33,402 nt of DNA from positions 1-33,402 of the forward strand of contig JAHJEG010000008.1 of assembly GCA_018825665.1 (NCBI GenBank). The letters are read 5' to 3'. Under the pieces are notes generated by a model, which saw only the letters and a list, made by a program, of their open reading frames with translations, was not told the DNA's origin and did not search any database. Shown here one piece after another: positions 23,289 to 32,721 of this stretch (positions within the stretch are counted from its first letter, which is position 1; every line of letters begins with the position of its first letter). The position numbers and the translations under genes were made by a program. The stretch comes from a bacterium (GTDB taxonomy: Bacteria; Campylobacterota; Campylobacteria; Campylobacterales; Sulfurimonadaceae).

Positions 23289-26200
23289 ATGCAATTTATT
23301 ACTTTAAAGTCCATCGTATCTGAGAGTACGATAAATCTAAAAGCAGAGCACACTATTGAAAAAGCACTGAGGACTATGGCCCAACATGCTATCAGTTCTG
23401 TTGTTATCATAGATGATGCCGACCGACCGATAGGGATATTTACCGAACGCGATGCCCTGCGCGTTGTCGCCCAAGAACTGGATAAACAGACTCCGATACA
23501 TAAAGTTATGACGCCTGAGCCTTTTTGCGTAAAACAGACATTGAATATTCATGATGCGTATGTTCTGATGGAAGAAAAATCCTACAGGCATCTTGTCACG
23601 GTGGATGAAGAGGGAAAGTATTCGGGTATTATTAGCGAGGGAGATTTTCTTCGTCATATAGGCTTTGATGAATTAAACAAATTTAAAGCAGTCTCTGAAG
23701 TGATGACTGCCTTGCCTCTGATAATCCAGCTCTCCGCTTCCATTAGAGAAACAGCGATTCTTATGGAGGAGCTTAACTGCGATTATGCGGTAGTCCTCGA
23801 TGGAAAGCATCCGGCGGGTCTGGTGACGGAGAGGGATATAATACGATGGAATCTGGATGAGCATGCGCTAAAAGACACCCCCGTTACAGAGATACTCAAC
23901 AAAGAGTACAGAGTCATAACAAAAGAGATCCTGCTTCAGGATGCGGCGGCAATGATGGAAGAACACGGGGTTCATCAGCTTATCGTAATAGACGACTCGG
24001 AAAATATGGTGGGACTTTTAAGCCGTCATGATGTCCTCCATGCTATTCACGGTGCTTATTTCGAATTTTTATTCGGTGTGATTGAACAAAAAAACGATAC
24101 TATCGAAAATCTCGAGATGCGAAAAAAGCAACTTTACAATGAAAAAAGTATCATCGAACAAAGCAATCTTAAATATACAAAACTTTTTGAGGCGATGCCT
24201 GATGGGGTCGTCTTATTGGATTCGAATACTCAAAAGGCAGTAGAATTTAATTTTGCCGCGCATGATTATTTGGGCTATACGGCTTCTGAGTTTTCGAAAT
24301 TAAGTATACCCGACTATGAAATTAGAGAGACTCCCGAGGAGATAAGTTCCCATATTGCGGCTATTCAAAAGCATGGATTTGACAATTTTGAGACGACGCA
24401 CCGTAAAAAAGACGGGACACTGATCTCCGTATGGGTGAATGTAGCGGCGATTGAACTTGCCGGAGTGTCTTATATGATGGCAGTCTACAGAGATATCACA
24501 AAACAAAAAGCGGCTGAAAAAAATCTGATACAAAGACAGTCTGAACTTTCACGACAAAGATCATTTTTGGATACGCTTGTCAACAGTATTCCCGATTTGA
24601 TATGGCTTAAAGATACGGATGGCATCTATCTGGCCTGTAATGAGATGTTCCAGCGTTTTTTTAATGCAAAAGAATCTGAAATTCTAGGAAAGAACGACTT
24701 TGATTTTGTGAGCCATGAGCTGGCAGAATTTTTTCGCAAACATGACCAAGCGGCAATAGCAGCCGGAGGTTCACGAACGAATGATGAGTTCTTGATATTT
24801 GGTGATGGGAGTTATGAGGGGTATTTTGAGACGATAAAAACACCCATGAAAGATTCCAAAAACAATGTCATCGGTGTGCTTGGCGTTGCAAGGGATATCA
24901 GTGAGCGCAAGCGAAAAGATGATGAGATTGAGCAGATTCAGTCCCTGGCGCATATAGGAACATGGGAATGGGATATACCCAATGATGTGTTTTCGGGCAG
25001 TACGGAGGCGTACAGGATTTTCGGGATACAACAAGGCAAAAAAGTCTCCTTTCGTGAGGTAATAGAGCATTTTGCACCCGAAGATCGAGAAAGGGTGGAA
25101 CACCAACTCTTTAGTATCTCAAAACAAAAAAGAGAGGTCGCTTCTCTTTACAGGGTGCTAGCAACAGACGGCGGATACAGGTGGATTAAAACACATACGG
25201 AGTTTAAATACGATGAAAATCAAAACCCGATAAAAGCTTTTGGAATCTTTCAGGACCTGACGGAGCATGTTGAGTTTGAGAATGCGATAACACGTAAAGA
25301 CCATGACCTCAATACCGCACAAAGACTGGCAAAGATCGGGAACTGGAGATTAAATTTTAAAGAAGATATTCTGGAATGGTCGGATGAGACTTACAGAATC
25401 TTTTCGATTGACAAAAGCACACCCCTCTCTTATGATCTGTTTTTATCCTGTCTGCACCCCGATGACAAGGATAAAGTGGACAATGCCTGGACAAAAGCAC
25501 TCAAGGGAAACAATTATGATATAGAGCATAGAATCCTGGTCAATAATGAGATTAAATGGGTAAGAGAACATGCGAGACTCGAAACGGATGCCAAGGGCAA
25601 TCTTGTCTCAGGCATAGGAACAGTTCAGGATATAACCAAGCAAAAGCATGACCAGGAAAAACTTGAGGTCTTAGCCAATTATGATTCTTTAACGGGCTTG
25701 GCCAACCGTGCACTTTTGATGTCGCATCTTCAAAACTCCATAGAGCAGGCCAAACGCAATAAGACACAAATAGCAATGCTGATGTTTGATCTGGACAGAT
25801 TTAAAGATATCAACGACAGTTACGGACACAGTTCGGGGGATGAACTGCTAAAGAGCATCGCCAAACGTTTTTCCTCCCGTTTAAGGGAGGGGGACCTTAT
25901 CAGCCGTATAGGCGGGGATGAGTTTGCAGTGGTTGTTGAAAATCTATCACACCCCGAAGATGCAGGACGCCTTGCCCAGGAGATGATAAATGCCTTGTCC
26001 TTGGAGTATAAATTATCAGCAGGCGCGCTTGTCCATGTCGGAGCAAGTGCAGGGATCGCCCTTTATCCGGATAACGGCAAAGATGCATCCGACCTTTTAC
26101 AGCATTCGGATGCAGCCCTGTACAAGACAAAATCTGAAGGGCGAGGCACATACAGCTATTATACCGATGAGCTTACACAGCAGGCACGTAATCGTATAGA

Positions 26201-26960
26201 ATGTGAGAACAGCCTGCGCAAAGCAATCGAAAACCAAGAGTTTGAAGTGTATTATCAGCCGCAGGTGCATATAGCTTCGGGGCGTATTTTAGGCGCTGAA
26301 GCTCTGGTGCGATGGCACCATGCCGAGAGAGGAATAGTCTCTCCGAATGAATTTATTCCTGTAGCTGAAGAGTTGGGTCTTATCAGTGCCATAGGGGAAT
26401 GGGTTTTAAATGAAACCTGCCGACAGGGAAAAATATGGCTGGATAAAGGGTATAAACTGATGCTTGCCGTTAATCTTTCCGCACATCAGATTCGCTATCA
26501 GAATATACCGCTCATGGTGGAAAAAGCTTTGAAAAAAAGCAGATATCTTCCAAGCCGTTTAGAGCTGGAAATCACAGAGAGTGCCTTGATGCAAAGGGAG
26601 GAAGAGGTCGTAGAGATGCTTCACTTGCTAAGGGCCAAGGGAATACGACTGGCGATTGATGATTTTGGAACCGGATATTCCTCTCTTAGCTATCTGAAAC
26701 GGTTTCCTATCGATGTACTCAAAATCGACAAAAGTTTTGTGGATGAGATTCCCTATAATAATGACGACATGGCGATTGTCAGTGCCATTATCGCAATGGG
26801 CCAGGCACTCGGTTTTCAGGTTTTGGCAGAGGGCACGGAGCGTAAAGATCAGATAGATTTCCTGCAAGAAAAAGGGTGTACGATGTATCAGGGATACTTT
26901 AAAAGCAAACCTCTTCCTGCGGCAGAGTTTGAAATACTCTTGCAAGATAACCTTTGGTAG
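23289..26960 (+). CDS. CBS(x4)-PAS(x4)-GGDEF-EAL cyclic-di-GMP signalling protein
   Basis: A 1223-residue cytoplasmic signalling protein with no membrane segment. Four CBS repeats (about 1-256) should bind adenine nucleotides. A coiled linker leads to four PAS or PAS/PAC units (about 296-413, 426-540, 554-670, 681-795). GGDEF at about 877 is intact and preceded by REGD five residues upstream, the layout of a product-inhibition I-site. The EAL domain (about 970-1215) keeps EALVRW, the Asn of NLSAHQ, EITES, DDFGTGYSS, the Lys of LKIDKSF, and AEGTE. Both cyclase and phosphodiesterase activities are therefore possible. It follows dxs by 45 bases with no terminator seen, so it may be co-transcribed with the flagellar genes. 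The gene ends nine bases from convergent pgeF. Confidence 0.93.
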   Translation: MQFITLKSIVSESTINLKAEHTIEKALRTMAQHAISSVVIIDDADRPIGIFTERDALRVVAQELDKQTPIHKVMTPEPFCVKQTLNIHDAYVLMEEKSYRHLVTVDEEGKYSGIISEGDFLRHIGFDELNKFKAVSEVMTALPLIIQLSASIRETAILMEELNCDYAVVLDGKHPAGLVTERDIIRWNLDEHALKDTPVTEILNKEYRVITKEILLQDAAAMMEEHGVHQLIVIDDSENMVGLLSRHDVLHAIHGAYFEFLFGVIEQKNDTIENLEMRKKQLYNEKSIIEQSNLKYTKLFEAMPDGVVLLDSNTQKAVEFNFAAHDYLGYTASEFSKLSIPDYEIRETPEEISSHIAAIQKHGFDNFETTHRKKDGTLISVWVNVAAIELAGVSYMMAVYRDITKQKAAEKNLIQRQSELSRQRSFLDTLVNSIPDLIWLKDTDGIYLACNEMFQRFFNAKESEILGKNDFDFVSHELAEFFRKHDQAAIAAGGSRTNDEFLIFGDGSYEGYFETIKTPMKDSKNNVIGVLGVARDISERKRKDDEIEQIQSLAHIGTWEWDIPNDVFSGSTEAYRIFGIQQGKKVSFREVIEHFAPEDRERVEHQLFSISKQKREVASLYRVLATDGGYRWIKTHTEFKYDENQNPIKAFGIFQDLTEHVEFENAITRKDHDLNTAQRLAKIGNWRLNFKEDILEWSDETYRIFSIDKSTPLSYDLFLSCLHPDDKDKVDNAWTKALKGNNYDIEHRILVNNEIKWVREHARLETDAKGNLVSGIGTVQDITKQKHDQEKLEVLANYDSLTGLANRALLMSHLQNSIEQAKRNKTQIAMLMFDLDRFKDINDSYGHSSGDELLKSIAKRFSSRLREGDLISRIGGDEFAVVVENLSHPEDAGRLAQEMINALSLEYKLSAGALVHVGASAGIALYPDNGKDASDLLQHSDAALYKTKSEGRGTYSYYTDELTQQARNRIECENSLRKAIENQEFEVYYQPQVHIASGRILGAEALVRWHHAERGIVSPNEFIPVAEELGLISAIGEWVLNETCRQGKIWLDKGYKLMLAVNLSAHQIRYQNIPLMVEKALKKSRYLPSRLELEITESALMQREEEVVEMLHLLRAKGIRLAIDDFGTGYSSLSYLKRFPIDVLKIDKSFVDEIPYNNDDMAIVSAIIAMGQALGFQVLAEGTERKDQIDFLQEKGCTMYQGYFKSKPLPAAEFEILLQDNLW

Positions 26961-26969
26961 CATTGGGAG

Positions 26970-27722
26970 CTAGTTCATAAGGATAATACCGCAAGACCTT
27001 CCGGTTGTCCCCTCTGCCCTGTAGGAGAAGTGTCTGTGTGGATTACAGCAGGTGCACTCCTTGGAGATCTCAATATTTTCCTCTCTGATTCCACATGCCA
27101 GGAGTTGTGAGTGTAGTATCCTATTGATATCAAGATAATATCTCTTGTCTCTAAGCTCCACGGCATACTCAAGATACATCCCAAGCGCCTCATCATAAAT
27201 TTCGGCTCCCACTTCATAACAGCAAACACCTATACTTGCACCCAGTGTGACATAGATATTTTCAGGCCTGGAGCGAAATCCGCATGCCATGGCCTCCAGG
27301 GTCTTATGTACGATATTTTTAAAAGCTCCGGCACGTCCGGCATGTGCAACTGCTATCACTTTTTGTGCATCATCGTAAAAAAGCAGGGGAGTGCAGTCGG
27401 CGACCATCACCATAAGAGGAGTGTTTTTTTTGTTGGTGACAAGCGCATCACAGCTTTGCGGATTCTCAAACCTGTCCTCATCATCTACCACATGGACTCT
27501 CTCGGAGTGGATCTGTTTCATATGCACAAGCGATATTTTTTCATATCCAAGCTCTTGGGCTAAAAGAGTATGGTTCATTTGCACATGCCGGGGATCATCG
27601 CCCACATGAAATGCAAGGTTGAGAGAAGAGTAGGGTCGCAGACTCACTCCGCCCTCTTTGTCTGTAAAAGCGCAGGTGATGTTTTTGAACTGATTCAGTA
27701 GATTATTTTCGGAAATTTTCAT
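26970..27722 (-). CDS. pgeF: Peptidoglycan editing factor, multicopper-oxidase-like (YfiH/LACC1 family)
   Basis: A 250-residue YfiH-family protein, described in various members as a laccase, a purine nucleoside hydrolase or phosphorylase, or a peptidoglycan editing factor. The zinc-site residues seem present: His in HMKQIHS, Cys in VADCTPLL and His in VAHAG. The usual HAGWRG motif reads HAGRAG here. The C-terminal CCNPHRHFSYRAEGTTGR block is standard. No Shine-Dalgarno precedes the ATG, and a perfect TATAAT ends six bases before it, so the mRNA may be leaderless. It is divergent from the ovothiol operon and convergent with the GGDEF-EAL gene. Confidence 0.9.
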   Translation of the reverse strand: MKISENNLLNQFKNITCAFTDKEGGVSLRPYSSLNLAFHVGDDPRHVQMNHTLLAQELGYEKISLVHMKQIHSERVHVVDDEDRFENPQSCDALVTNKKNTPLMVMVADCTPLLFYDDAQKVIAVAHAGRAGAFKNIVHKTLEAMACGFRSRPENIYVTLGASIGVCCYEVGAEIYDEALGMYLEYAVELRDKRYYLDINRILHSQLLACGIREENIEISKECTCCNPHRHFSYRAEGTTGRSCGIILMN

Positions 27723-27733: not shown

Positions 27734-27770
27734 TCTAAACATTATGCTTTAAGTTTTAAAAGTACCATTT

Positions 27771-27779
27771 TGCTACAAT
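27771..27779 (+). promoter_or_regulatory. Extended -10 promoter of the ovothiol operon
   Basis: TGCTACAAT has the TGn extension and one mismatch to TATAAT. It lies 30 bases before the ovoA start, with AAGGA (27796-27800) between them. It is divergent from the pgeF promoter in an 86-base gap. Confidence 0.5.
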
Positions 27780-27808
27780 GGTGCCATCTAAAATAAAGGA
27801 TTTTTTTA

Positions 27809-29914
27809 TTGAGTACATTTAGCAGATATCCGGTGAGTCTTGATGGCGGGGATATACAAATAAAACGAAACGAGATAAGAGAATATTTTCATAATACCTA
27901 TGATCTGTTTGAAAAAATATTTGAGGTTTTGAAAAACGATGAGGTCTTTTACCAAAAATCGGAGCCCACGCGTCATCCGATGATATTTTATTTTGGGCAT
28001 ACGGCGACTTTTTTTATAAATAAACTTGTAAGCATGAAGATACTCCATGAAAGAATCAATCCGGATTTTGAGTCTATTTTTGCCGTGGGTGTGGATGAGA
28101 TGGCCTGGGATGATATTACAGGTGCGAACTATACATGGCCAAAAGTCCGGGATGTTCGGGAATACAGAAACAAGGTCAGAGACCTGGTAGATGAACTTAT
28201 CTGTACGCTTCCCCTGACTCTGCCCATAAGAGAAGAGGATGCCATATGGATTATCCTGATGGGGATTGAGCATGAGCGTATCCATATAGAGACCTCTTTG
28301 GTTCTTCACAGACAGATGCCCATAGAATTTGTGCAGGAGCTGCAAGAGTTTAGGCTTTGTGCGAGTTCTTCTGAGACTCCTCCAAATGAAATGGTGTCTA
28401 TCCCCTCCCGGCATGTGGAACTAGGCAAAGAGAAATCCCACAATCTTTATGGCTGGGACAATGAATACGGGCATTACTCTGCGGAGTTAAAAGAGTTTAA
28501 AGTCTCAAAATATCTGGTTTCTAACGGCGAGTTTATGGAGTTTGTGCAAGCCGGCGGCTATGAAAATCAGGAGTATTGGGATGAAGAGGGCAAAAAGTTT
28601 TTGAAAATCACATCCTCCAAACACCCGACTTTTTGGGTGAAAGAGGGGGATACCTATCTCTACAGAACATTAAGCGCACTTATCGCCATGCCTATGAATT
28701 GGCCCGTAGACGTAAACGCTTTGGAAGCGGAGGCGTTTTGCAGGTTTAAAAGCCAAAAAGAGGGAGCCCTCTATCAGCTTCCAAGCGAGGCGGAACACCG
28801 CGCCCTCTATGAGTATGCGGGTTTAGAGGATATTTTGGAGTTTGACGAAAGCAGAGCCAATCAGAATCTCACCCATTTTAGTTCCTGCCCTGTCGATAGA
28901 TATGATTTCAAAGGGGTATATGACATCGTGGGAAATGTCTGGCAATGGAGCAGAACTCCCATCTTCGGCTTTGAAGGATTTGCGGTTCATCCGGCATACG
29001 ATGATTTTTCAACTCCGACCTTTGACGCAAAGCACGCTATTATCAACGGTTCCTCCTGGGCGAGTTCGGGCAATCTGATAATGAAGCATTCCCGTTATGC
29101 ATTTAGAAAACATTTTTATCAAAATGCAGGTTTTCGATATGTGATCTCACAAAACAAGGATACAAGTTTGCAGGAAAATGAAGATATATACGAGAGTGAC
29201 GCTCTGGTCGCGCAGTACTGTGAATTTCAGTACGGAGACACACATTTTGGAGTGAAGAATTTTGCTCTGGAGTGTGCCAGAATAGCCTCCAAATTTGCCA
29301 TAAATACAAAAAAAGCACTTGACTTAGGGTGTGCTACAGGTCGGGCGACCTATGAGCTTGCAAAAAGTTTTGATGAGGTTGAGGGGATAGATTTTTCAGT
29401 CAGATTCGTTCAGGTCGGCTCAAAACTCAAAGAATCGGGAGAGATTCTTTTTCACTCCCTCGAAGAGGGTGCGCTTGTCACGAACAAAAAAATAAGTATA
29501 CAGGAGCTTGGATATGAGAACCTAAAAGAGAAGGTTTCTTTTTGGCAGGGAGACGCCTGCAATCTCAAGCCCAATTTCCACTCGTATGACCTTATAATGG
29601 CGACGAACCTTATAGACAGACTCTACAATCCGAGACTGTTTTTAGACACCGTTGATACGCGTCTAAATGAAGAGGGTATTTTGATTTTGACCTCGCCCTA
29701 CACCTGGCAGGAAAGCTCAACGAAAAAAGAGTTATGGCTCGGCGGATACAGAGACAAAGATGGCAAAGAGGTAAAAACCATAGATACGCTAAAAGAGATT
29801 TTGGGTAAAAAGTTTGAGCTTGTGCATATTCAGGATTTGGAGTTTGTCATAAAAGAGACGGCGAGAAAGTACCAGCATACCGTTTCTGAGCTAAGTGTCT
29901 GGAAAAAAAAGTGA
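27809..29914 (+). CDS. ovoA: 5-histidylcysteine sulfoxide synthase fused to mercaptohistidine methyltransferase
   Basis: A 701-residue OvoA, an iron enzyme that joins cysteine to C5 of histidine with oxygen, the first step of ovothiol synthesis. The N-terminal DinB-like domain (about 20-190) carries the iron ligands His64 (FGHTATFF) and His155/His159 in HERIHIE, the HX3HXE signature. The FGE-type domain (about 200-450) ends with GNVWQWSRTP, INGSSWASSG and NAGFRYV. A SAM methyltransferase (about 490-700) has LDLGCATGRA at 504 and should methylate 5-thiohistidine. EgtB lacks this third domain and acts on hercynine, so OvoA is the better call. The start is TTG with AAGGA eight bases upstream. 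Its stop overlaps the lyase gene start. Confidence 0.93.
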   Translation: MSTFSRYPVSLDGGDIQIKRNEIREYFHNTYDLFEKIFEVLKNDEVFYQKSEPTRHPMIFYFGHTATFFINKLVSMKILHERINPDFESIFAVGVDEMAWDDITGANYTWPKVRDVREYRNKVRDLVDELICTLPLTLPIREEDAIWIILMGIEHERIHIETSLVLHRQMPIEFVQELQEFRLCASSSETPPNEMVSIPSRHVELGKEKSHNLYGWDNEYGHYSAELKEFKVSKYLVSNGEFMEFVQAGGYENQEYWDEEGKKFLKITSSKHPTFWVKEGDTYLYRTLSALIAMPMNWPVDVNALEAEAFCRFKSQKEGALYQLPSEAEHRALYEYAGLEDILEFDESRANQNLTHFSSCPVDRYDFKGVYDIVGNVWQWSRTPIFGFEGFAVHPAYDDFSTPTFDAKHAIINGSSWASSGNLIMKHSRYAFRKHFYQNAGFRYVISQNKDTSLQENEDIYESDALVAQYCEFQYGDTHFGVKNFALECARIASKFAINTKKALDLGCATGRATYELAKSFDEVEGIDFSVRFVQVGSKLKESGEILFHSLEEGALVTNKKISIQELGYENLKEKVSFWQGDACNLKPNFHSYDLIMATNLIDRLYNPRLFLDTVDTRLNEEGILILTSPYTWQESSTKKELWLGGYRDKDGKEVKTIDTLKEILGKKFELVHIQDLEFVIKETARKYQHTVSELSVWKKK

Positions 29915-31095
29915 GCTTCAGTTTTTTAGACTCATCACCCAGAGAAGAGAGCAATGCTGAAAAATATACGCTAAGAGAGAGACTGTTCGGTACAGAGGAT
30001 GTTCTGCCGGTATGGGTGGCGGATATGGATATCGATACTCCCGATTTTGTGATTGATGCCGTAAAAAAGAGGCTTGAGCATCCCGTCTTGGGTTATGAGG
30101 ATTTTCCAAAAAGCGCTTTTTTGGCTCAGATACAATGGATGCAGAAGGAGCACGGAGTGGTGTTTGATGTGGAAGATATGTTTTATTCCCACTCCGTTGT
30201 GGCTTCTATGAATGCGGTGATAGAGGCCTTTAGCGAGAGAGGGGAAAAGGTAATCGTTCAGACTCCGGTGTATCCCCCTTTTTTTCACAGTGTGAGCGAA
30301 CATAAAAGAGAACTCCTTAAGAATCCTCTCAAGCGCTCGGCATGTGGAAAGTACAGCTTTGACATAGAAGACTTAAAATCAAAGATAGACGAAAAAACAA
30401 AACTTCTTCTCCTTTGTTCGCCGCACAATCCAGTGGGAAGAGTCTGGCGCAAAGAGGAGCTTGAAGAGATCTTGCAAATCTGCCTTGAGCATAATATTGT
30501 CGTATTCTCGGATGAGATCCATTGTGATTTGAGCTATGCTCCCAACAAACATATCCCATTTGCTTCACTCTCAGACAAGGCAAGAGATATCACCATAACC
30601 GCCCTGGGCGTCGGTAAGACATTTAATATGGCAGGCTTTGCGGTGAGCAGCGTAGCGATACCAAACAAAGAGTTAAGAGATAAATTTGCAGAGGTCTATA
30701 AAAAAATCCATTTTGCACAAGGCAGCGTGTTTGGGCATGTAGGATTCGAGAGTGCTTACAAAAACGGGAGAGCGTGGCTTGGGGAGTTAAAAGTGCATTT
30801 GAGGGGGAACTATGAGATGTTGCAGGAGCTATGTCAAAGATTTCCACATGCCCTGCAGCTTACACCGATAGAAGCGACCTACCTTGCCTGGCTTGATTGC
30901 AGGGGGATGGGGCTTAAAGATAAAGAGTTGAGAGACTTTTTTGTCAAGGAGGCAAAACTCGGATTAAATGCTGGACTGAGCTTTGGCAGAGAAGGAAGCG
31001 GTTTTATGCGCTTGAATTTTGCCGTTTCTCGTGTTAAAATGTCGCAAGTGATAAGGCAGTTGGAAAAAGCCTTGGAAAAAAGAGCAGGAAAATAG
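29911..31095 (+). CDS. ovoB: PatB/MalY-family PLP C-S lyase, probably OvoB
   Basis: A 394-residue fold-type I PLP beta-lyase. VWVADMDIDTP near the N terminus, CSPHNPVGRVW, SDEIHCDL, and the PLP lysine Lys236 in GVGKTFNMAGF mark the PatB/MalY group. By sequence alone it would be called cystathionine beta-lyase. Its GTG start overlaps the ovoA stop (GTGA), so it is translationally coupled to ovoA. This strongly suggests it is the sulfoxide lyase that releases 5-thiohistidine from 5-histidylcysteine sulfoxide. The family identity is seen; the OvoB role is inference from context and the known two-enzyme pathway. The next gene starts immediately after its stop. Confidence 0.82.
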   Translation: MSFSFLDSSPREESNAEKYTLRERLFGTEDVLPVWVADMDIDTPDFVIDAVKKRLEHPVLGYEDFPKSAFLAQIQWMQKEHGVVFDVEDMFYSHSVVASMNAVIEAFSERGEKVIVQTPVYPPFFHSVSEHKRELLKNPLKRSACGKYSFDIEDLKSKIDEKTKLLLLCSPHNPVGRVWRKEELEEILQICLEHNIVVFSDEIHCDLSYAPNKHIPFASLSDKARDITITALGVGKTFNMAGFAVSSVAIPNKELRDKFAEVYKKIHFAQGSVFGHVGFESAYKNGRAWLGELKVHLRGNYEMLQELCQRFPHALQLTPIEATYLAWLDCRGMGLKDKELRDFFVKEAKLGLNAGLSFGREGSGFMRLNFAVSRVKMSQVIRQLEKALEKRAGK

Positions 31096-31320
31096 ATGAT
31101 AGCGATTAACTGGAATGAGTACAAAGATTTTAAAACGCAGGCGCATACGCAGGGGGACAACTTCGATATGCTTCTTGAGTTTTTAAGAAGTTACTACAAT
31201 ATGACAAATCCCGTAGAGATTTTTGAGACGCTTAATGCAGACGAACTTGCACTTATGATGCTTCAAAAAAGGGAAATATCAGATGCGGGTGATGTAGAGA
31301 GTTATCTAAGAAATAGATAA
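31096..31320 (+). CDS. Small protein in the ovothiol operon, unrecognised
   Basis: I do not recognise this 74-residue acidic protein. It has no signal peptide, membrane segment or cysteine. Predicted character is largely helical, with NFDMLLEFLRSYYNM in the middle and an Asp/Glu-rich C terminus (SDAGDVESYLRNR). Its ATG follows the lyase stop with no gap, and its stop shares a base with the next gene start (TAATG). Such tight packing makes it a real member of the ovoA operon. A role as partner or chaperone of the ovothiol enzymes or of the flavoprotein is possible but unsupported by any motif. Confidence 0.72.
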   Translation: MIAINWNEYKDFKTQAHTQGDNFDMLLEFLRSYYNMTNPVEIFETLNADELALMMLQKREISDAGDVESYLRNR

Positions 31321-31739
31321 TGGATGAAAACCTTCAAAAAATAAGCTCATTTTTGCATGAACACCATGTGATGAGTTTAGCCTCCTCAAGCACGGATGAG
31401 CTTAGCGTTTGCAACCTTTTTTATGCGTATGACAATGAAAAAACATCTTTTGTCGTAGCCAGCAGCGAGGATACCGGGCATATCAAAAATATTTTAAAAA
31501 ATCCAAAAATTGCGGGAAGCGTAGTCTTGGAGACAAAAACTGTGGGAAAGATCCAGGGGGTACAGTTTCGCGGGACTTTTTCACGCTTGCAAGATGCTGC
31601 CATGAGAAACCTCTATTTCAAAACCTTTCCCTATGCCCTGGCAATGTCTCCAAAACTGTGGGAGATAAAAGTCAGCTATTTCAAGATGACGGATAATCGT
31701 CTGGGTTTTGGCAAAAAGATACTCTGGGAGAATTCTTAG
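31320..31739 (+). CDS. YhbP-type (UPF0306) pyridoxamine-phosphate-oxidase-like flavin protein
   Basis: A 139-residue single-domain split-barrel protein resembling YhbP and pyridoxamine 5'-phosphate oxidase relatives. The N-terminal helix plus HEHHVMSLASS strand, LSVCNLFYAYD, FVVASSEDTGHIKNI, and the GVQFRGTFSRL block fit the family, whose members often bind FMN, F420 or heme. The reaction is unknown. It is the last gene of the ovoA operon, sharing a base with the preceding stop, so a redox role connected to ovothiol, such as recycling the disulfide, is an attractive but untested idea. Its stop codon overlaps the stop of the convergent 58-residue gene. Confidence 0.8.
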   Translation: MDENLQKISSFLHEHHVMSLASSSTDELSVCNLFYAYDNEKTSFVVASSEDTGHIKNILKNPKIAGSVVLETKTVGKIQGVQFRGTFSRLQDAAMRNLYFKTFPYALAMSPKLWEIKVSYFKMTDNRLGFGKKILWENS

Positions 31740-31912
31740 CTTTTTTTAGAGTTTTTTTCCTGAAACAGACTGCACTCTATCCCGCTGCTTTGAAAAACCA
31801 CCAAAGAGGGAATTTGTGCCGATTTAAAGCCATAGGCTCTGCAGCCGTGAGGTTTGCCGGCTTCCCAGGTCACAAAATAATACGCACATCTTCTACAATT
31901 AATTCTTTTCAT
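31736..31912 (-). CDS. Four-cysteine small protein, probable metal site
   Basis: A 58-residue minus-strand protein, MKRINCRRCAYYFVTWEAG followed by PHGCRAYGFKS, IPSLVVF and SSGIECSLF. Cysteines at 6, 9, 24 and 47 look like a zinc or iron-sulfur site. I believe short proteins of this pattern are widespread in Proteobacteria and sometimes carry a misleading uracil-DNA glycosylase label, but this is from memory. An in-frame stop six codons upstream fixes the ATG at 31912, and GAGAAG lies nine bases before it. Its stop (TAA, 31736-31738) overlaps the stop of the flavin-protein gene on the other strand. A divergent promoter element lies at 31940-31965. Confidence 0.78.
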   Translation of the reverse strand: MKRINCRRCAYYFVTWEAGKPHGCRAYGFKSAQIPSLVVFQSSGIECSLFQEKNSKKS

Positions 31913-32028: not shown

Positions 32029-32721
32029 GTGGATAAGATATTATTGATGCTACAGCTTCAGATGCAGTTAAACGATTCGACAAACGGCGATGAATGGAAG
32101 AGCGGTATAACAAAAAACAAAAAAATAATAAACTGGAGACGATGCATTTACATGGAATGCGCAGAGATGATTGACTCTTTTTCATGGAAGCATTGGAAGA
32201 GCATAGACCAGGAACCCGACTGGGATAATCTGCAGATAGAGGTTGTGGATGTTTGGCACTTTATTATGAGCCTTGCGCTTGAAAACTACGATAAAAGAAT
32301 GCGGGGGAATGTTGAGGATCTGGCTTTGAATATTTCAGAGCTTCCGAGTTTTGATGCTTTGAGTGCAAAAAATGAGTCTTTTGCCTCCCAAAATGAGGTG
32401 ATACAAAAGGTTGAAGAGATAATGATTCTGGCGCTCAGCAGAGATGAACTTGAACTTGAGAAAATGATTGAAGATTTTTTTGAACTGGTACTTATGAGCG
32501 GATTGGATTTAAATACTCTGTACAGACTTTATGTCGGTAAGAACATACTCAACCAGCTTCGTCAAGACAACGGATACAAGGAGGGTTCTTATATAAAAAT
32601 ATGGAATAACGAAGAGGACAACGTAGTGATGAAAAGACTCTGGGAAGAGGATGAAAACTTAAAACCTGACGTTTTGTACAAGCACCTTACAAAAATATAC
32701 CTTTCTTTGCACAAGGACTGA
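32029..32721 (+). CDS. dut: Dimeric dUTPase (all-alpha NTP pyrophosphatase family)
   Basis: A 230-residue dimeric dUTPase that hydrolyses dUTP (and dUDP) to dUMP, keeping uracil out of DNA and feeding dTMP synthesis. It belongs to the all-alpha NTP pyrophosphohydrolase family, not the trimeric beta form. The metal-binding residues are in YMECAEMIDSFSWKHWK near residue 42 and EVVDVWHFIM near 73. Campylobacter has the same type of enzyme. The start is GTG with AAGGA (32018-32022) six bases upstream. An ATG two bases earlier is out of frame and ends after six codons. The ABC ATPase gene starts four bases after its stop. Confidence 0.92.
   Translation: MDKILLMLQLQMQLNDSTNGDEWKSGITKNKKIINWRRCIYMECAEMIDSFSWKHWKSIDQEPDWDNLQIEVVDVWHFIMSLALENYDKRMRGNVEDLALNISELPSFDALSAKNESFASQNEVIQKVEEIMILALSRDELELEKMIEDFFELVLMSGLDLNTLYRLYVGKNILNQLRQDNGYKEGSYIKIWNNEEDNVVMKRLWEEDENLKPDVLYKHLTKIYLSLHKD

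Follow-up and report, generated by a model that had tools for sequence, protein, structure and literature searches.

Predicted ovothiol A genes and their two downstream neighbours, orf74 and yhbP, as probably separate modules at one Sulfurimonadaceae locus

In this work we analysed a 33,402-nucleotide stretch of a Sulfurimonadaceae genome (GenBank assembly GCA_018825665.1, contig JAHJEG010000008.1, positions 1 to 33,402 of the forward strand; hereafter the window), and in particular a string of four genes, ovoA, an ovoB-type lyase gene, orf74 and yhbP, which an earlier note on this DNA had described as a fully coupled ovothiol operon with two accessory genes. The string at 27809-31739 was confirmed to the base, with all genes on the + strand (Table 1). 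The ovoA and lyase genes overlap by four bases (GTGA), the orf74 start abuts the lyase stop, and orf74 and yhbP have base 31320 in common; a Shine-Dalgarno-like AAAGGA lies 8 bases 5' of the ovoA TTG, and an AGGA lies 5' of orf74. Through these same-strand overlaps and abutments the four genes have the spacing of a single transcript, in line with the note's description of them as fully coupled. Chance does not account for this tight packing, which is found again in most Sulfurimonas relatives, with purifying selection acting on orf74. The genes being adjacent and co-directional, they are probably co-transcribed here. A promoter and terminator scan of the sequence gave no more matches than in shuffled sequence, and the sites of the consensus promoter scan did not include the -10-like tgcTACAAT of the ovoA leader.

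Table 1. Genes and other features of the ovoA-yhbP region (aa, amino acids; AF2, AlphaFold2; ORF, open reading frame; PLP, pyridoxal 5'-phosphate; dN/dS, ratio of nonsynonymous to synonymous substitution rates).
Feature	Position	Strand	Start codon	Basis
ovoA, 5-histidylcysteine sulfoxide synthase fused to N-methyltransferase domain, 701 aa (predicted)	27809..29914	+	TTG 27809	TIGR04344, TIGR04345
ovoB-type PLP-dependent C-S lyase, PatB family, 394 aa (predicted)	29911..31095	+	GTG 29911	TIGR04350
orf74, 74-aa helical protein, no family assigned	31096..31320	+	ATG 31096	dN/dS, AF2 model
yhbP-like split-barrel (PNPOx-like) protein, 139 aa	31320..31739	+	ATG 31320	PF01243, NF002900, AF2 model
ovoA leader	27770..27808	+		Extended -10-like tgcTACAAT 27771-27779 and Shine-Dalgarno-like AAAGGA 27795-27800, putative, by eye
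pgeF-like Cu-oxidase_4 gene, divergent upstream flank	26970..27722	-		PF02578, 252 bits
58-aa cysteine-containing ORF (cluster c7), convergent downstream flank	31736..31912	-		ORF list
dut (dUTPase_2), downstream	32029..32721	+		PF08761, 113 bits

The first two genes are, by their predicted products, the standard ovothiol A biosynthesis pair. OvoA scores 645 bits against TIGR04344 (cut-off 400), which defines the sulfoxide synthase domain, and 317 bits against TIGR04345 (cut-off 170), which defines the C-terminal 4-mercaptohistidine N-methyltransferase; its alignment with the OvoA crystal structure 8khq covers the full length (818 bits), and its methyltransferase part matches the OvoM structure 9bxl. 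Residues H64, H155, H159 and E161 (HX3HXE motif), which from general knowledge of the family we take to be the iron ligands, are kept in 118-119 of the 119 campylobacterotal homologues. The lyase scores 540 bits against TIGR04350 (cut-off 340), the PatB-type C-S lyase subfamily, has PatB 6qp3 as its nearest solved structure and carries a PLP-lysine motif, GKTFNMAG, as read from the sequence; its gene adjoins ovoA in most genomes of the family, a genetic linkage that supports its assignment as OvoB. OvoA would thus join histidine and cysteine to a sulfoxide, the PatB-type lyase would free 5-thiohistidine from it, and the C-terminal domain of OvoA would N-methylate 5-thiohistidine to ovothiol A, the same steps as described for OvoA and OvoB in PMC12631010. 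With all catalytic domains present, the claim that the first two genes are enough for ovothiol A is upheld for the predicted proteins, and these two genes alone would make it. The pathway is not new in Sulfurimonas, since a review of OvoA/OvoB across bacteria, including vent species, cites a Sulfurimonas (PMC9103826). At several loci of genus g5 (L087, L090, L095, L097, L100, L102, L114, L116) OvoA is only ~470-500 residues long and has no methyltransferase domain, and in six of the nine g5 genomes checked no convincing TIGR04345 domain was found elsewhere; there the pathway may end at 5-thiohistidine. PMC9103826 already notes bacterial OvoA proteins that have no such domain.

The co-occurrence of yhbP and ovoA was surveyed in 397 Campylobacterota genomes, counting ovoA above cut-off and combining the ovoA and yhbP lists by hand. 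ovoA was found in 119 and yhbP in 235 (both in 70, ovoA only in 49, yhbP only in 165, neither in 113), and yhbP is present in 59% of the genomes with ovoA (70/119) and 59% of those without (165/278; Fisher p = 1, uncorrected for phylogeny). Families f4, f7 and f11 have ovoA and no yhbP, and in families f2 and f3 yhbP nearly always occurs without ovoA. Among 20 yhbP loci sampled outside the window's family, dut lies within ~2 kb in 10 and ovoA nearby in none, and the ovoA genes sampled outside it never adjoin yhbP. Within the family, 228 genomes were surveyed, of which 139 were counted as good (at least 90% complete, at most 5% contamination), and gene absence in genomes less than 90% complete was left out of the test. 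The good genomes include 134 with ovoA, 134 with yhbP and 86 with orf74; all five that have no ovoA (G010, G015, G027, G485 and G520) have yhbP, and only G010 also has orf74.

Adjacency alone says little at this locus, because the whole string c5 / pgeF / ovoA ovoB (orf74) yhbP / c7 / dut is syntenic within the family. The distance between ovoB and yhbP is at most 300 bases in 39 of 48 family loci, whereas yhbP is near dut in 43 of the 48, so that the ovoB-yhbP adjacency is no better kept than that of yhbP and dut. The two pairs of genes can also be found apart. In G311, ovoAB lies elsewhere in the genome and orf74-yhbP is at the old place; by OvoA similarity its OvoA still groups with the sister species, and ovoAB is therefore best read as a vertical copy that moved within the genome. 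In G010 (100% complete), which has no ovoA, orf74-yhbP lies between pgeF and dut, with a 4-base overlap and its own ribosome-binding site, and yhbP is likewise kept in G015 and G027, which also have no ovoA; set against G037, a relative with 92% identity, G027 has its break at the start of yhbP. In a tree of the flanking genes these cases of ovoAB loss or movement fall on separate branches. The proposal of the earlier note that yhbP acts with ovothiol is thus not supported by the neighbourhood survey that the note had named as a check: its presence is independent of ovoA, it is kept when ovoAB leaves, and its wider neighbour is dut. It shows none of the dependence on ovoA that marks a dedicated ovothiol accessory, and its reading as a bystander of the ovothiol pair has good support from these gene distributions.

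By profile and model, YhbP is a PNPOx-like split-barrel superfamily protein: it scores 30.4 bits against PF01243 (cut-off 28.1), and its AF2 model (predicted local distance difference test score, pLDDT, 94.7) matches split-barrel structures in the PDB with E-values down to 3e-9. The flavin label in the earlier designation 'YhbP-type flavin protein' is putative, since the nearest solved folds are heme-, F420- and flavin-binding proteins alike.

Orf74 is the product of a genuine gene, with a dN/dS of 0.06-0.17, an alignment of 31 members in which W6, K10, D21, D49, L56, K58 and R59 are invariant, and an AF2 model (pLDDT 92.3) with five confident helices. Nothing significant was found in Pfam (searched with the single protein and with all 31 members), in NCBIfam or by PDB sequence profile, nor when the model was compared with PDB folds by Foldseek and VIA-align. 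In the Campylobacterota survey orf74 is confined to the window's family, where it is present in 137 of the 228 genomes. Weak matches beyond the family, with E-values of 7e-4 to 8e-3, lie inside longer unrelated ORFs and were taken as chance, a hidden Markov model search of 20 yhbP loci in other families found no diverged orf74 next to yhbP, and a scan of genome contigs gave only one further locus, from a Sulfurimonas single-cell genome with the same neighbourhood, which leads us to take the host of the window for Sulfurimonas or a close relative. Within the family the gene accompanies ovoAB in some genomes, only yhbP or only ovoB in others, and is by itself in still others; it thus has no exclusive partner. 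Where it is remote from both ovoA and yhbP (L197, L198, in G450 and G451; L199, in G572), the genes next to it are small and unannotated, or encode a haem-binding domain or a solute-binding protein.

In our view, the locus is probably shared by two modules, the known ovothiol pair and its orf74-yhbP neighbours, and does not amount to a proven new ovothiol system. The genes orf74 and yhbP would be small residents of the conserved pgeF...dut string, YhbP being a general Campylobacterota split-barrel protein without a tie to ovothiol, and Orf74 a helical protein particular to the family, its reading frame often overlapping that of yhbP. While gene content, domains, synteny and separability are direct observations, it is from them that we infer that orf74-yhbP would function independently of ovothiol. 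Several points weigh against this reading: the adjacency is old in the family and the overlapping frames are kept, which selection for co-expression could explain; the good genomes without ovoA number only five, which gives low power, and orf74 is absent from four of them; and the same genes can work in different pathways in different lineages. A refinement of the two-module reading, in which orf74 would be a small partner or regulator of YhbP, unconnected with ovothiol, is conceivable, if doubtful. The frames of the two genes overlap or nearly abut in ~30 genomes, including G010 and G311, but sir2 or draG genes intervene in genera g71, g72 and g75, across most of the phylum yhbP is found with no orf74, and orf74 has no adjoining yhbP in L032, G545 and G400, nor in the isolated cases of G450, G451 and G572. 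The idea of orf74 as a constant companion of yhbP did not survive the wider survey of the family.

That orf74 alone is an ovothiol accessory, for example a partner of OvoA or OvoB, with yhbP as bystander, seems to us improbable. For a link of orf74 to ovothiol the evidence is mixed. In its favour are the rarity of orf74 in good genomes without ovoA (1/5, against 85/134 with ovoA; p = 0.07, with only five in the first group) and its position in distant genera, where one gene order is ovoA-ovoB-orf74-sir2-draG-yhbP-dut: in g71 and g72 it lies directly 3' of ovoB, with yhbP beyond sir2 and draG or, as in G400, ~20 kb away, and the single-cell genome and G545 keep ovoB-orf74 with no yhbP adjoining. 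However, a full ovoA is lacking in G010 and in G407 (95% complete), both of which have orf74, orf74 is at the locus without ovoAB in G311, G414 (as orf74-sir2-yhbP), G537 and G538, ovoAB is there without orf74 in G252, G254, G266, G307 and G368, and three genomes carry orf74 apart from both partners. We give the same low standing to the more specific proposal of a small helical protein family, peculiar to the Sulfurimonas family and with Orf74 as its first member, that would assist ovothiol metabolism or the iron enzyme OvoA and act in trans where orf74 lies elsewhere. It is more unlikely still that both genes are true ovothiol accessories in this family (in disulfide recycling, delivery or protection of the iron enzyme), recruited by the upstream ovoAB, with the copies in ovoA-less genomes doing a general job. 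The overlapping four-gene packing, the restriction of orf74 to a family in which ovoA is near-universal (134/139 good genomes) and the skew of orf74 towards ovoA-bearing genomes would all fit such a recruitment, but yhbP is uncorrelated with ovoA in the phylum and kept in all five ovoA-less genomes, where its motifs are the same, G311 has split ovoAB from orf74-yhbP, and in many ovoA-bearing genomes elsewhere both genes are missing from the vicinity of ovoA.

The two-module reading takes yhbP off the list of likely ovothiol genes by comparative genomics, and leaves orf74, a small orphan family worth naming, as the one concrete target. It also illustrates that full coupling within a gene string can be misleading where synteny extends over the entire neighbourhood. 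The earlier ranking of the extended operon as the best candidate for something undescribed was not sustained, the pathway being standard and the locus ordinary as a system; the ovoA neighbours in family f7 are better candidates for undescribed ovothiol neighbours. In this family (17 genomes, e.g. L080, L099, L105) ovoA is tightly coupled, with gaps mostly of -23 to 54 bases, behind a weakly ChaC-like (gamma-glutamylcyclotransferase-like) gene and a gene for a 741-aa unannotated protein, with an RraA-like gene upstream in most.

Other insertions were seen around these genes. In Sulfurimonas the ovoA-ovoB junction is a recurrent insertion site (L034, L045, L049, L051, L156, L155, L089), with further insertions between ovoB and yhbP (L161) and between pgeF and orf74 (L152). 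The inserts in or near ovoA-ovoB include an NgoPII-type restriction-modification system, an MmeI-type IIG enzyme, KilA-N and ORF6N proteins (PADLOC candidates PDC-S22 and PDC-S05) and PDC-M33 genes, and some genes at the junction carry no annotation. Their reading as extra pathway genes was rejected, as most of the annotatable ones belong to restriction-modification systems or are candidate defence genes, and from its gene content the junction has the look of a hotspot for defence genes within the ovothiol pair. Genes for a Sir2 deacylase and/or an ADP-ribosylglycohydrolase lie between orf74 and yhbP in distant genera (L188-L191, L187 and L194), and an ADP-ribosylglycohydrolase gene precedes ovoA in three f7 genomes (L055, L069, L088). 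As for the flanks, the pgeF-like gene is at the same place in most relatives, and the 58-aa c7 ORF, which had no match in a Pfam search, is kept in ~30 loci. Between a dxs-like gene and pgeF (window 23289-26960) lies the gene for a 1223-aa protein with a CBS pair, PAS, GGDEF and EAL domains by eye, found at this place in only one sampled relative (L082).

Compared with known ovoA-ovoB systems (8khq; OvoB of Erwinia tasmaniensis), the pair described here has the same synthase-methyltransferase fusion and PLP-dependent beta-lyase, with the iron-ligand motif conserved and a full-length match to 8khq, whereas its lyase belongs to the PatB subfamily (TIGR04350) and the pair is set within the pgeF...dut string with orf74 and yhbP downstream. 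YhbP resembles the YhbP family (NF002900, E. coli YhbP) in length, PNPOx-like split barrel and whole-length profile match, but at 125 bits it falls below the curated cut-off of 176, which no Campylobacterota genome searched passes, and is thus not assigned as an equivalog; in Campylobacterota its gene is often next to dut. A further parallel is with the 5-thiohistidine N-acetyltransferase neighbourhoods of Bacteroidota (PMC12631010), where extra genes beside ovoA were likewise examined for a role with thiohistidine. That study demonstrated an action on 5-thiohistidine for one of the ovoA neighbours, and set aside those that genomes without ovoA carry as well; by the same criterion yhbP, which also occurs in genomes without ovoA, is set aside here.

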